From Pseudomonadota bacterium (lineage in GTDB: Bacteria > Campylobacterota > Campylobacteria > Campylobacterales > Campylobacteraceae): DNA of 64,000 nucleotides. Of this stretch, positions 13,564 through 20,746 are shown piece by piece. Both the position numbers and the translations under genes were made by a program. Location of the stretch: the NCBI GenBank assembly GCA_002746565.1, contig PDPI01000022.1, positions 1 to 64,000 of the forward strand. Reading direction: 5' to 3'. Within the stretch, counting starts at the first letter, position 1. Every line of letters starts with the position of its first letter. The notes under the pieces were generated by a model. That model was not told the origin of the DNA, made no database searches, and saw only the letters and a program-made list of their open reading frames with translations.

Positions 13564-13600
13564 TACATGTAAGGGTTTCCCCCTTACATGTAATTTTATT
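13564..13600. terminator. Likely bidirectional terminator between convergent genes
   Basis: TACATGTAAGGG-tttcc-CCCTTACATGTA followed by ATTTTATT; 12-bp stem containing the TTACATGTAA motif. Confidence 0.85.
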
Positions 13601-14804
13601 CGTCTCCCGCACAAATAGCCGTAAATACAACATCGGTTGAGCTATTTAGTGCAGTTTCCAAGGAGTCTTGAACAACTCCTATTATAAAACCAATAGCCAC
13701 AACCTGCATGGCGATGTCATTATTGATGCCAAAAAGTGAGCAAGCAAGGGGAATCAAAAGCAAACTTCCTCCAGCAACCCCACTAGCTCCGCAAGCAGCT
13801 AGGGCTGATACTACGCTAAGCAAAAGTGCCGTTGGGATATCCACAGAAATTCCTAGGGTATGAACAGCAGCTAGAGTTAAAACTGTTATGGTAACAGCAG
13901 CTCCTGCCATATTTATAGTTGCCCCTAGGGGTATTGAGATAGAATAGGTATCTTCGTGCAGTTTTAATTTTTCGCAAAGGGCTAGGTTTACAGGAACATT
14001 TGCAGCCGAACTTCTTGTAAAAAATGCCGTAATTCCACTTTCCTTAACGCATGTAAATATAAGAGGATATGGGTTTTTCCTAGTTTTTACAAAAACAATG
14101 ATCGGATTTACTACAAAACCCACAAAAAGCATAGCTCCAATTAGCACTAAAAGCAGTTTTCCATATCCCATCAAGGCAGTAAAGCCAGTTTTGGCAAAGG
14201 TATCCGTAACTAATCCAAATATCCCAAAAGGAGCAAGACGGATGATAAAGCGAACTATCTTCGTAACACCTAGGGAAACATCTTTAAATACCGCCTTTGT
14301 ATCTTCGCTACTATAATGCATGGCAAAGCCGATTGCTATTGCCCACACTAAAATACCTATAAAATTACCCTTTGCTAGGGCATTTACAGGGTTATCAACC
14401 ATATTAAAAAGTACACCTTTAAGAACTGAAATGACACTAGTTGGAGGTGTTAGGGAGGTTGCGGCTGCTTCTGGCAAAACCAATTCTACGGGAAATAAAA
14501 AACTAGCAACAACAGCTATTAGAGCTGCTGAGAATGTGCCTATTAGATAAAGTACTACGATGGGCTTCATTTTTGTGCTATTTCCTATGGTCTTTGTGGC
14601 TATTGCCGTGGCAACCAAAACAAAAACCAAGATAGGAGCAACAGCTTTCAAAGCTCCCACAAACAAAGCACCAAGTATAGAGATAGCCGGTGCAATCGAC
14701 GGAATCAGCGATGCGACTAAGACACCTGCTATAATGCCTATAATGATCTGAAACACCAGATTCCCATTCATGTACTTAACCCACAAGGAAGGTTTATTTT
14801 CCAT
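13596..14804 (-). CDS. sstT: Serine/threonine:Na+ symporter SstT (dicarboxylate/amino acid:cation symporter family)
   Basis: 402 aa; [62 protein letters not shown]. Confidence 0.92.
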
Positions 14805-15095: not shown

Positions 15096-15202
15096 TTACC
15101 CTTTGAAAAATAATATTAGTATTAAACAATAATAAAATATACTTAAATGATGACTTATGGTTTTTACAGTATAATTAGACAAATAATTTAAAGGAGCTTA
15201 TA

Positions 15203-15646
15203 GTGAATTGCTACAATGTGATTATTTTTAAACTGACTAAAAGTAAGGAAATGGGGTATAAAAATCGAGAAGAATGGGTAGAAAAATATTTTAAAAATAA
15301 TTTGTCCAGTAGAGATAAAAATTTTTTTTGTATTGGCAAGAAATTAAATCAAAATAGATTTAACATGTGTAAAATCGCATATTTTTTATTTGAAGGAGAA
15401 CTTATAGGTCAAGCTAAGTTTACTGGAGAAATACATTTAAACTATAAAAAAGTAGAAAGAAAATATAAAAATGGCTACGAAATAAAAGATGTGACGATAT
15501 TTGAACATCCTATATCCATAAATCTAGAGGATATAGGCAAATCAAATAATATGAGATCATCTTTTATTTATGTAGAACGACCTGTTGACAAAAGGTTTGT
15601 TAAAAACTTGGTTGATAAAGAAATTAATGATATTATGGATTTTTAG
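15203..15646 (+). CDS. Hypothetical protein, possibly PUA/ASCH-like fold; first gene of a two-gene cassette
   Basis: 147 aa; GTG start with AAGGAG RBS; IAYFLFEGELIGQAKFTGEIHL...VTIFEHPISINLEDIG; 30 bp upstream of the helicase gene. Confidence 0.7.
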   Translation: MNCYNVIIFKLTKSKEMGYKNREEWVEKYFKNNLSSRDKNFFCIGKKLNQNRFNMCKIAYFLFEGELIGQAKFTGEIHLNYKKVERKYKNGYEIKDVTIFEHPISINLEDIGKSNNMRSSFIYVERPVDKRFVKNLVDKEINDIMDF

Positions 15647-15676
15647 TGATTAAAAGTTTCAAAAAGGATTTAAAAA

Positions 15677-17968
15677 ATGGGTTTAGATTGCTCTGATGGA
15701 GGTGGAGAAATAAATTTTAAACAAGAGTTGGGAACTGATTTTGATACACATGTATCTAATGAGGATATGCCCATATTTAAGAAAATGAAATTTATTGATA
15801 AGTATTCGCAATATGGATATCTGTCAACAAAAAATATATATTTCACAAAAGCAAGTAGTGCACGGAAAATAAAATATAATGAAGTTTTACATCGAAATAT
15901 AGTCATTCCAACTACTGGAGAGAATAATCAAGGTTATTATAGGATTTATTATTGGTATGATACAGATGCTTATAAATTTTTAACTTTGAATTTGGGTGAT
16001 GGGGGCGGAAGGTTAGGAACTTTGGAGGTTGTTGGAGACTTTAAACCAGTAGAAAATAATTTATTAAATGTTCAGTATAGCTCTATAAACGGAAAAGCAT
16101 TTTTTGCAAATGCAAAAGAAGAGCTTTATGAATTTGAAAGTATTCAGCCAGATATGGCTATTGAAAGAAATTATATAGATATTGAGCATTTTATAGATAT
16201 AAAAGAGGTAATTCCAACGGGTGATCAAGCTAGAGCCATATATGAAAAAGGAAATTATATAATAGATGGCTCTGCTGGTGTTGGCAAATCCACAACTGCT
16301 GTTCAAAAAATCAAAATTTTAACACATCAGCAAAAAATCAGAGAAGAAGATATTGTTATATTGGTAAAAGATATTCAAACATTAGAAATATTTAGAAATT
16401 TACTAAAATCTATAAATGTAAACAATGTTAATATATTAAATTATTATGATTTTGAACGAAAAATTGCAGTAGGTAGCAATTTGCCAAACTATAAAATATT
16501 AATTCAAAGTCAAAAAAGAGCTAATGAGATTTACAGTTTTTTTATGGAATTTCTACAAAGATATTTTCCAAGTAGTATTCTTGTTGACTCAAAAGAATAC
16601 ATTAGGAAAGAAAAAAGTTTATTTGAATTAATTCAACATGATGAAAAAGTACTTAATGTGTTATATGAAGTTAAAAATTTATGGGCTTACTTAAAAGATG
16701 AAAAATATAAATTAGAAAAGGCTAAAAAAGATATAGTATCTCAATATGATAAACTTATGGAAGATAAAAGATATTTTTTGTTAAACAAGCAAAAAAATGA
16801 AAAACTAAGAAATTATTTGCTAGATAATTTTGCATTATTTAGAGAAGATAAAATTCTTGACATCATAATAGATAAATTGGATTTTAAAATAATACAAGAA
16901 TATGTGTTTAAATCATTGGAAGATACAATAAATAAAAGCAAAAAACGGTACATACAAAATGCAATATCAAAAATTGAAAATGATGACACTCTAAATTTTG
17001 CAAACAAAAGTATGCTTGAAAATTTTACAATTCAATGTAGTCAAAATCAAAAAAAGGATATTGGTAAGATAGAGCAAAAATACAATATTAAACAAATTAG
17101 AGAAAATTTGGAAAATTCATTAAATAATGCTAAGCAAATTTTATTTTCATTGCAATGTTTGGAAAAAATTCCAGATATCAATAAGATGGTTTTGCGATAT
17201 TTAAATAAGTTAGAAAATAATAATAAATTAACTGAGTATCACACCATCATTATAGATGAGGCACAAGATTTTACTAAAGAAAGCATTGAATTAATTAGGC
17301 TTTATGCAAAAAATTTAGTACTTACGGGTGACGAATTGCAATCTTTAAATTCATTTGGATTAAAAAAATGGACTAACCTTATGAGTATAAATAGCTATAA
17401 AGAAGATGGTAGACTAAAGGTATTCAGTTTAAAATATAATTTCAGACAAACCTATGAGCTTGCCAGCTTTACTTATAATTATAGACAGCTAGAACTAGGA
17501 AGAGCAATTAGTGATATACAAGGGGAATATTACGAAAATCAAAAAAATTTTAACAAACCATATATGAGGCGTATATTAAATGGTGAAGATTTTATTAAGC
17601 TAGTAAGTGAAAAAGTTTTATATATTAGTAGCAATTTTATTCAAAAATTTCCTTTGGTTATATTTTATGAAAATAGTAATATTTGTGAGTATTATAAGGC
17701 TTTATTTAAAACAGCTACAATTACTTATGGACTGGATGATATGCATCAAAACCAAAGCGTAGATGTTTTGTTGATTTCATGTCATGAAATTTCTGGAAGA
17801 GAGTTTCCGGTAGTTATTGCACCTTTGTTGGATAATTTTAATAGCAACTTAGTATATCTTATGATAACTAGGGCAAGATATGATTTGACACTTATTTTAC
17901 ACGATGAGGTCAAAAAACACAAACATATTGAAAGATTGATTAGCGAGAATATTTTAGGTAGCAAATGA
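15677..17968 (+). CDS. UvrD/PcrA-like superfamily 1 helicase with an unassigned N-terminal region
   Basis: 763 aa; PTGDQARAIYEKGNYIIDGSAGVGKSTT (Q motif + Walker A), TIIIDEAQDFTKE (Walker B), LVLTGDELQSL (III), LKYNFRQTYELA (IV), ISGREFPVVIAPLL (V), VYLMITRARYDLTLIL (VI). Confidence 0.9.
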   Translation: MGLDCSDGGGEINFKQELGTDFDTHVSNEDMPIFKKMKFIDKYSQYGYLSTKNIYFTKASSARKIKYNEVLHRNIVIPTTGENNQGYYRIYYWYDTDAYKFLTLNLGDGGGRLGTLEVVGDFKPVENNLLNVQYSSINGKAFFANAKEELYEFESIQPDMAIERNYIDIEHFIDIKEVIPTGDQARAIYEKGNYIIDGSAGVGKSTTAVQKIKILTHQQKIREEDIVILVKDIQTLEIFRNLLKSINVNNVNILNYYDFERKIAVGSNLPNYKILIQSQKRANEIYSFFMEFLQRYFPSSILVDSKEYIRKEKSLFELIQHDEKVLNVLYEVKNLWAYLKDEKYKLEKAKKDIVSQYDKLMEDKRYFLLNKQKNEKLRNYLLDNFALFREDKILDIIIDKLDFKIIQEYVFKSLEDTINKSKKRYIQNAISKIENDDTLNFANKSMLENFTIQCSQNQKKDIGKIEQKYNIKQIRENLENSLNNAKQILFSLQCLEKIPDINKMVLRYLNKLENNNKLTEYHTIIIDEAQDFTKESIELIRLYAKNLVLTGDELQSLNSFGLKKWTNLMSINSYKEDGRLKVFSLKYNFRQTYELASFTYNYRQLELGRAISDIQGEYYENQKNFNKPYMRRILNGEDFIKLVSEKVLYISSNFIQKFPLVIFYENSNICEYYKALFKTATITYGLDDMHQNQSVDVLLISCHEISGREFPVVIAPLLDNFNSNLVYLMITRARYDLTLILHDEVKKHKHIERLISENILGSK

Positions 17969-18869: not shown

Positions 18870-18906
18870 TTGACTTTTTTACGTAATTACAATATAATTA
18901 CGTAAA
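18870..18906 (+). promoter_or_regulatory. Sigma70-type promoter with overlapping 12-bp inverted-repeat operator of mazEF
   Basis: TTGACT-17 bp-TATAAT; TTTACGTAATTA-caata-TAATTACGTAAA (18878-18906) spans the -10. Confidence 0.8.
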
Positions 18907-18922: not shown

Positions 18923-19183
18923 ATGACATCTTTAATAAAAATAGGCAATTCGCAGGGCATAAGACTTCCAAAAACTATTATTCAACAAGCCCGTCTTGAA
19001 AATAAAGATTTAGAATTTAAAATCGTTGATGAAGGTTTGCTTATAAAACCAGTGATAAGCAGGGCAAGAAAAAATTGGGATAAAAATATAAGCTTAATAT
19101 TATCCTCCTGCAAAAATAAAGAAGATGATGGCTTGATAAATGAATTTCTTAATGATAGCGATTTGGAGGATTTTGAGTGGTAG
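18923..19183 (+). CDS. AbrB/MazE-family antitoxin
   Basis: 86 aa; TSLIKIGNSQGIRLPKTIIQQARLENKDLEFKIVDEGLLIKP (SpoVT/AbrB fold). Confidence 0.92.
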   Translation: MTSLIKIGNSQGIRLPKTIIQQARLENKDLEFKIVDEGLLIKPVISRARKNWDKNISLILSSCKNKEDDGLINEFLNDSDLEDFEW

Positions 19184-19503
19184 AAAAGATTAAAAGGTAT
19201 GATATTTATCTAGTAAAGCTAAATCCCACTATGGGTTCCGAAATTCAGAAAACTCGGCCTTGTATAGTTGTTTCTCCAGATGAGATGAATGTGCTTAAAA
19301 CTATTATTATAGCACCCATGACAAGTAGAGGGTTTGAATTTATCTTTCGTCCAAAAATTAACTTTGAAAATAAAGACGGATTGGTTCTTCTTGATCAAAT
19401 AAGGGCCGTAGATAAAAGTAGATTGGTAAAGAAAATTGGAAAAGCCGATATGCAAACCTCCCTTGATATCTCCCAAATGCTTGTGGAGATGTTTAAATAT
19501 TAA
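19177..19503 (+). CDS. MazF/PemK-family endoribonuclease toxin
   Basis: 108 aa; IKRYDIYLVKLNPTMGSEIQKTRPCIVVSPDEMN...IIAPMTS...LLDQIRAVDKSRLVKKIG; start overlaps the antitoxin end. Confidence 0.95.
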   Translation: MVEKIKRYDIYLVKLNPTMGSEIQKTRPCIVVSPDEMNVLKTIIIAPMTSRGFEFIFRPKINFENKDGLVLLDQIRAVDKSRLVKKIGKADMQTSLDISQMLVEMFKY

Positions 19504-19516
19504 TTTGATTTTGTGT

Positions 19517-20746
19517 TTAAGTTTTTGCCATTTCTTCTCCGCAAACGAAACCGCTTGCCCATGCCCAGTGTAAGTTGAAGCCTCCGCAATCGCCGTCTAT
19601 GTCTAGGACTTCTCCGCTAAAATATAAGCCTTTTACTAGTTTTGATTGGAGATTTGCATCTAGATCTTTAAATTTTACTCCTCCTGCTACTACTTCTGCG
19701 TTTTCAAAACCCTTGGTGGCTGCGGGAGTGTATTTTAGGTTTTTAAGGGTGTAGCTTAGGGCATTTATGTGTTTTTTGTTTAAATCTTTAGATGCGAGAT
19801 TGTGTGGGATATTGCAGTGTTTTATGATAAGATTGGCTAGTTTTTTGTTAATGAGCCCATTTAGTAGTAAATTTATGGGTTTATTTGGGGAATTTTTGGC
19901 AAAATTTTCTATTGTTTTGGTTAGTTTTTGGCGTGAAAAATCCCTTAGGCAATCCAAGCTTATTTGTGTATTTTTGTTTTCCATTAGGGCTTTGGAAGTC
20001 TGGCGGGAGATATCTAAAATTGCTGAGCCTGATAAGTCATAGTTTGTTAAAAGCAGATCTCCAAAAATGCTTTGGGTGAGTTGATTTTCCACACATAAAC
20101 TAACATCTGCTTGAAATTTTACCCCACTTGCATCTTGGTTTTTTCCCTTGCAAATAAGTTGGACTAGGGATGGGAAGAGGGGACTTATCTCATGTCCGAA
20201 ACCTTTTGCAAACTCGTATCCACTGCTAGAGCTACCTAGTTTTTCCATTGCGGGGCTGCCTGAAGATATTAGGACTTTATCAAAATTTCTAGTGCTTGAG
20301 TTTACATGTAAGATAAATTTATCATTTTTCTTTTCTATTTTTTCCACAAAGTTATTTAGATAAAGATTCCCGCCAAGTGTTTTAAATTCATAGACTAGGG
20401 CATCGCTAATGCTTGAGGCTTGCAAGGAAAGGGGGAAATATTTTCCATTTTCTTGCTTAAAGATTTCCAATCCTATACTTTGGAAAAATTTTTTAAATGC
20501 AATCTCATCAAAGCGGTCCAAAACTTTTTTAGCAAGACTTAAATCTTCGCCATGATAGCGTGAAATGTGGATATTTTCATTGCTTATGTTGCATCTGCCA
20601 TTTCCCGAAGCTAAGATCTTCCTTGCAGGGCGAGAGCTTTTTTCAAAAATGCTTACATCCCCACCATTTCTAAGGGCTATGATCCCAGCTACCAAACCAG
20701 ATGCTCCGCCGCCGATTATGGCTATTTTATTATTTTCTTTTTGCAT
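19517..20746 (-). CDS. HI0933/BaiN-family FAD-dependent oxidoreductase
   Basis: 409 aa; IAIIGGGASGLVAGIIALR, KILASGNGRCNISN, GLYFSGEVLDIDGDCGGFNLHWAWASG. Confidence 0.92.
   Translation of the reverse strand: MQKENNKIAIIGGGASGLVAGIIALRNGGDVSIFEKSSRPARKILASGNGRCNISNENIHISRYHGEDLSLAKKVLDRFDEIAFKKFFQSIGLEIFKQENGKYFPLSLQASSISDALVYEFKTLGGNLYLNNFVEKIEKKNDKFILHVNSSTRNFDKVLISSGSPAMEKLGSSSSGYEFAKGFGHEISPLFPSLVQLICKGKNQDASGVKFQADVSLCVENQLTQSIFGDLLLTNYDLSGSAILDISRQTSKALMENKNTQISLDCLRDFSRQKLTKTIENFAKNSPNKPINLLLNGLINKKLANLIIKHCNIPHNLASKDLNKKHINALSYTLKNLKYTPAATKGFENAEVVAGGVKFKDLDANLQSKLVKGLYFSGEVLDIDGDCGGFNLHWAWASGFVCGEEMAKT

Follow-up and report, generated by a model that had tools for sequence, protein, structure and literature searches.

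A family of candidate specificity domains in Campylobacterales, with a stand-alone member encoded beside a divergent SF1 helicase

The 64,000-nucleotide stretch of Campylobacteraceae DNA analysed here, contig PDPI01000022.1, positions 1 to 64,000 (the window), encodes a 147-amino-acid protein that belongs to a family of domains which we refer to as readers. In other Campylobacterales, these domains head HNH endonucleases, McrB-like proteins and AAA_21 ATPases, and it is a well-founded inference that they act as specificity modules for modified or foreign nucleic acid. In the window, the reader is a separate protein, and the gene that follows it codes for a divergent SF1 helicase of the UvrD type. 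Of the two results, we regard the reader family as better supported and of greater use, and the two-gene cassette as a credible variant of modification-dependent defence.

Results

A two-gene island of atypical composition

The cassette comprises the following features:

15191..15196, + strand: ribosome-binding site region of the 147-aa gene, AAAGGAG shortly before the GTG, read from the sequence
15203..15646, + strand: gene of the reader-family protein, an open reading frame of 147 aa with a GTG start, a stand-alone specificity-type domain
15677..17968, + strand: gene of the divergent UvrD-type SF1 helicase, an open reading frame of 763 aa with an ATG start

The two genes are co-directional and separated by 30 bp (15647-15676), and the ATG of the helicase gene is preceded by AAGGAT, as read from the sequence. 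The GC content of the two-gene island is 25-27% (0.25 for the 147-aa gene and 0.26 for the helicase gene), in agreement with an earlier note on this DNA, which had placed the pair in an AT-rich patch. Moreover, GC3 is 0.22 in the 147-aa gene and 0.18 in the helicase gene compared with 0.316 +/- 0.027 in 19 other genes of the window. Based on the GC content of the island and the distance of its GC3 from that of the other genes, both genes are probably foreign in origin and entered jointly.

The flanks are also as described earlier. On one side lies a transporter gene (13596-14804, - strand), named sstT in the earlier note, and on the other a gene for a BaiN-like flavoprotein (19517-20746, - strand). 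The features next to the cassette are a decayed gene for a DUF285 surface protein and, downstream, a MazE/PemK toxin-antitoxin pair (18923-19503), in which PemK matches Pfam with an E-value of 1.2e-27; a strong promoter-like site (18870-18898) precedes this pair. In the immediate neighbourhood, no known defence gene was found beyond this MazEF-type pair.

The 147-aa protein belongs to an apparently unnamed domain family

The 147-aa protein matched nothing above the curated cut-offs in Pfam, PADLOC, NCBIfam, PHROGs and PDB. In a tblastn search of 72,556 plasmids, it matched the N terminus of an Aliarcobacter faecis HNH endonuclease (WP_202805375; E 2e-6, 28% identity over 116 aa); matches in Bacteroides plasmids were weak (E 1-5). 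The rest of the A. faecis enzyme is of the McrA-type HNH kind (PF01844, 3e-7), with EcoKMcrA as the best PDB match, and two GmrSD_N genes are located just downstream of its gene. Family profiles were seeded with the window protein together with the A. faecis N terminus and then widened by relatives, and profile searching found the 147-aa protein to be homologous also to the N termini of McrB-like and AAA_21 proteins. An alphaproteobacterial HNH protein (H29) that is relative-like over most of its length was rejected, its N terminus being another domain (HHalign probability 0.1).

Eleven family members were compared, of which the others are 22-29% identical to the window protein. Aromatic residues are strikingly frequent in the conserved columns (Y/F19, F/Y29, F30, F/Y41, F42, Y60, F61, F/Y63, Y/H92 and Y123, together with G91). 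The window protein retains the family residues F30, D38, N40, F42, F61, A71, G75, G91 and Y123 and, keeping the conserved aromatic columns, is an intact family member rather than a broken HNH enzyme.

The earlier note had likened the small protein to modified-base or RNA readers of the PUA/ASCH/EVE type. The role gains support from the homologues fused to McrA-like HNH domains, McrB and other restriction-type ATPases; the fold does not. No Pfam PUA, EVE or ASCH model matched the window protein, one relative matched Methyltranf_PUA at 0.0085, under the cut-off, and HHalign of the reader family against EVE gave a score of 14.8 with column shuffles reaching 16.5, i.e. no EVE relationship was found. 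A single-sequence AF2 model of the 147-aa protein (pLDDT 45) has the order strand-helix-strand-strand-strand-strand-helix, which is compatible with PUA but is not evidence for it; Foldseek searches with the model returned no usable match. No Pfam model claims the reader family, which appears to be unnamed; a description was not found in the profile libraries or the literature searched, an absence that is not proof that the family is undescribed.

Reader domains are fused to restriction-type effectors

The reader family is rare and was found in 7 of 377 genomes of the phylum, the window's own counted, and in three families (2/104, 4/44 and 4/170 genomes). Most homologues are nuclease fusions and not helicase partners. 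Readers fused to McrA-like HNH domains were found at loci L004, L013, L014, L015 and L016 (HNH E 1e-6 to 1e-8), and L055 carries a further fusion of the same form. For one of the four fusions L013-L016, the reader-HNH gene (L021:4747-10052; G264:C27) directly adjoins TnsA, TnsB, TniB and TniQ of a Tn7-like element, either as cargo or as a neighbour of the attachment site. At L059, the reader is fused to HNH_2 (1.4e-13) beside genes for Vsr (3e-23), MutH (1e-34) and a C5 methyltransferase (2e-63).

In a second form, the reader is fused to a McrB-type AAA_5 domain (5.7e-14) in a gene straight after McrC (3.5e-60; L017 and L018), and at L030 a decayed reader lies between McrC (2.6e-44) and McrB; in this decayed form (L030/L033; G413), the reader part contains several stop codons while McrB is still an open frame of 465 aa. 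The McrC and reader-McrB genes of one locus (L018:684-10117; G283:C115) are found amid genes of a contractile injection system, with CIS_tube (2e-38), baseplate V and a tail hub before them and gp25 and Baseplate_J after them, an unusual setting for a restriction system.

The reader is fused to an AAA_21 ATPase (3.8e-17) at L060, in an apparent three-gene operon (L060:6077-9896; G604:C53) of a GTPase-like 626-aa protein, the reader-AAA_21 protein and a 173-aa protein, the last with a stretch (DFITIKD..IIEVKDY) that resembles a PD-(D/E)XK core by eye. This operon is possibly an undescribed modification-dependent system. The most distant family member, a stand-alone reader of 165 aa, is encoded before DUF4917 (1e-42) and a KAP NTPase (L026 and L032). 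The L032 cluster (L032:6084-15726; G442), which contains an AAA-cytidine deaminase fusion, the stand-alone reader, DUF4917, the KAP NTPase and a C5 methyltransferase, looks like a defence island. Finally, L061 carries a partial reader where its contig ends, with two C5-methyltransferase-like genes nearby.

The C terminus of the McrA-like HNH enzymes carries unrelated N termini in other plasmids, as one would expect if the specificity domain is exchangeable. Moreover, in characterised HNH enzymes of the McrA type, modified bases are sensed by the N-terminal domain (PMC7145662, PMC6212794, PMC11037411). Taken with the fusions to HNH, McrB and AAA_21 proteins, these observations argue for the specificity-module reading set out above, and homology to the N-terminal modules of these three protein types places the 147-aa protein in a type IV-like specificity domain family.

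The second gene encodes a divergent UvrD-type helicase with a large insertion

The 763-aa protein contains the following elements, with the motifs read from the sequence:

15677..16216, + strand: N-terminal region, residues 1-180, no family match, no nuclease motif seen
16268..16294, + strand: motif I (Walker A), GSAGVGKST, residues 198-206
16397..17176, + strand: insertion of ~260 residues between motifs Ia and II, Lys/Asn/Leu-rich by composition, 1B-like
17255..17269, + strand: motif II (Walker B), DEAQD, residues 527-531
17324..17344, + strand: motif III, TGDELQS, residues 550-556
17432..17449, + strand: motif IV, KYNFRQ, residues 586-591
17792..17815, + strand: motif V, SGREFPVV, residues 706-713
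17861..17887, + strand: motif VI, MITRARYDL, residues 729-737

Walker A and B, motifs III-VI and a Pfam UvrD-helicase match (9.1e-7, 29.3 bits against a cut-off of 23) identify the protein as a divergent SF1A helicase of the UvrD type, consistent with the motifs I-VI reported before. UvrD_C_2 matched just under its cut-off (7.8e-6, 26.1 bits against 27.4). As also claimed earlier, the N-terminal region is without assignment or nuclease motif: residues 1-180 had no significant Pfam match, and the N-terminal 185 aa matched nothing among plasmids or phages at E<=10, nor anything in PDB. Overall, no recognisable nuclease was found in the helicase or in the 147-aa protein.

The insertion had been described as long and Lys/Glu-rich. 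It is long and rich in lysine (36 of 260 residues); glutamate accounts for only 21, and L (31), N (27) and I (27) are nearly as frequent as K. It is probably helical, to judge from helix in a low-confidence single-sequence AF2 model of the helicase (pLDDT 31) that is too poor for interpretation. Motifs IV and V are only ~115 residues apart, and thus there is no insertion of 2B size.

Instead of DNA, a UPF1-, HelD- or CnuH-like motor together with the reader might act on modified or foreign RNA, on ribosomes or on RNA polymerase. The helicase's top Pfam match is a viral RNA helicase core (Viral_helicase1, 2.7e-7), and in the CnuH helicases of CoCoNuT systems, which are predicted to have RNA targets, Walker A is likewise followed by a large helical insertion (PMC11090510). 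Moreover, the sole helicase hints in PDB and NCBIfam are HelD-type RNA polymerase motors; these matches are not significant (PDB E 0.83; NCBIfam E 0.04, 12 bits against a cut-off of 1051). By contrast, DEAQD, GDELQS (GDxxQS) and SGREF (G-x-EF), as read from the sequence, are UvrD-type and not UPF1-type motifs, and readers are mostly fused to DNA endonucleases of the McrA, HNH_2 and McrBC types. We therefore consider an RNA-directed pair distinctly unlikely.

In PADLOC, which had been proposed as a check for a named system, GajB gave a partial match to the helicase (E 0.001-0.006). In Gabija, GajB is likewise a helicase of SF1 and has its partner in a separate protein (PMC10822852), and the pair could have diverged from a Gabija-like system, with another sensor in place of the OLD nuclease. 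The GajB match, however, covers only residues ~498-623, i.e. the common SF1 motifs II-IV, and does not amount to full-length homology. Moreover, the helicase differs from GajB in length and N terminus, and no gene for an OLD ATPase or TOPRIM protein lies near the pair in the window, in line with the earlier view that the pair is not Gabija. A Gabija-like origin is, on this evidence, highly improbable.

Close relatives of the helicase were not found

No homologue of the helicase was found among 153 genomes of the family and 397 genomes of the phylum, in the plasmid and phage collections, or in viral contigs searched with peptides and motif patterns. The sole genome match (G418) is weak, a fragment of 68 residues that contains a stop, and the reading frames around it read as ordinary housekeeping genes; all four viral-contig matches to the YNFRQ pattern were unrelated. 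The pattern DEAQD[FL]..GDE[hydrophobic]Q had one match in 84,980 species genomes, so that this form of motif III after DEAQD[FL] is almost unique; the match lies in a different gene cluster and is a UvrD-like helicase unrelated to the one studied here. Pattern scans demand exact motif matches, and these numbers thus bound close relatives only; distant ones may exist.

Among the relatives found in Campylobacterales, no reader-family member was seen beside an SF1 helicase. A conserved pairing could not be shown, and the two could be unrelated ORFan genes that are chance neighbours in an integration hotspot, as the habitual fusion of readers to nucleases and the presence of the decayed surface-protein gene and the MazEF pair in the same island would allow. 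Against chance are the shared strand, the 30 bp gap, a ribosome site for each gene and the same atypical GC3; moreover, the relatives of the reader are parts or neighbours of effector-type proteins, and ATPases or nucleases usually accompany them. We consider chance neighbourhood unlikely, albeit a serious contender.

Discussion

The explanation that we favour, with a probability a little short of even, is that the pair is a horizontally acquired two-gene defence cassette, type IV-like, i.e. modification-dependent, in which the sensor and an SF1 motor are separate proteins. This explanation builds on what is observed, namely both genes, the family of the motor, the homology between the small protein and fused domains of the restriction type, and the foreign composition. 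In the proposed mechanism, the 147-aa protein would be the specificity subunit that binds chemically modified or otherwise non-self nucleic acid; the sensor that is welded to its effector (HNH, McrB or AAA_21 ATPase) in relatives would here be a separate subunit. The SF1 helicase would be the ATP-driven motor, recruited or licensed by the 147-aa protein, and would unwind the marked molecule, or translocate along it, and block it. Damage might be inflicted by the helicase itself, through its unclassified N-terminal region, or by nucleases of the host.

We infer the joint action of the two proteins, modified DNA as the ligand and the restriction of phages or plasmids as the outcome; the defence role is suggested by the company that the reader family keeps and not by the pair in the window itself. 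The operon-like spacing, the ribosome sites of both genes, their shared atypical composition and the intact, aromatic-rich reader core count in favour of the cassette. Counting against it are the lack of a helicase homologue, of a recognisable nuclease, of a reader relative beside an SF1 helicase, of a profile relationship to EVE or PUA and of known defence genes close by other than the MazEF-type pair. In total, the interpretation given in the earlier note is partly supported.

More doubtful is a specific form of this proposal, in which an undescribed reader family that serves as the exchangeable sensor of HNH, McrBC, AAA_21 and DUF4917 systems here steers a nuclease-less SF1 helicase, with its N terminus as a novel effector region, onto modified nucleic acid of an invader.

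The reader family is found at the sensing end of several restriction-type machines within one bacterial order, and its ligand, once identified, would allow the targets of all these machines to be predicted together. Should the stand-alone reader indeed work with the helicase, the cassette would be modification-dependent yet have no recognisable nuclease, and would put to the test how far phage DNA can be restricted by a motor on its own.

Judged on the features compared, the pair is none of Gabija, McrBC, CoCoNuT or HelD, and differs from each in a defining feature. HelD is an SF1A motor with a large insertion placed in the first RecA domain. The helicase resembles it as an SF1A motor with a large insertion; its N-terminal region, as read from the sequence, is unlike the HelD coiled coil. 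The helicase of Gabija is likewise a UvrD-like SF1 member of a two-gene system; its partner is the OLD-TOPRIM nuclease GajA, in contrast to the small reader here. The CnuH proteins of type II/III CoCoNuTs are also SF1 helicases with a big insertion after Walker A and are tied to type IV restriction (PMC11090510); they are, however, UPF1-like and have CnuB/CnuC and nuclease partners, none of which are present in the cassette with its UvrD-like motifs.

The reader domain itself links the cassette to two classes of restriction enzymes. Among McrA-like HNH endonucleases (EcoKMcrA, the SRA-HNH enzyme TagI and A. faecis WP_202805375), one group has an N-terminal domain homologous to the 147-aa protein, whereas the cassette has a helicase as the partner in place of an HNH domain. 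At two McrBC loci, the same domain heads McrB (L017) or is decayed (L030), whereas neither a McrB GTPase nor McrC is encoded beside the pair, and the motor is SF1 and not AAA+. EVE operons differ in that an SF2 helicase is fused to a nuclease and accompanied by a methyltransferase and DUF499, and in that EVE is not detectably related to the 147-aa domain; nevertheless, the stand-alone EVE proteins encoded with SWI2/SNF2-nuclease operons are a precedent for a modified-base reader beside a helicase gene, and provide the nearest published layout of a separate small reader and a helicase motor (PMC7641849).
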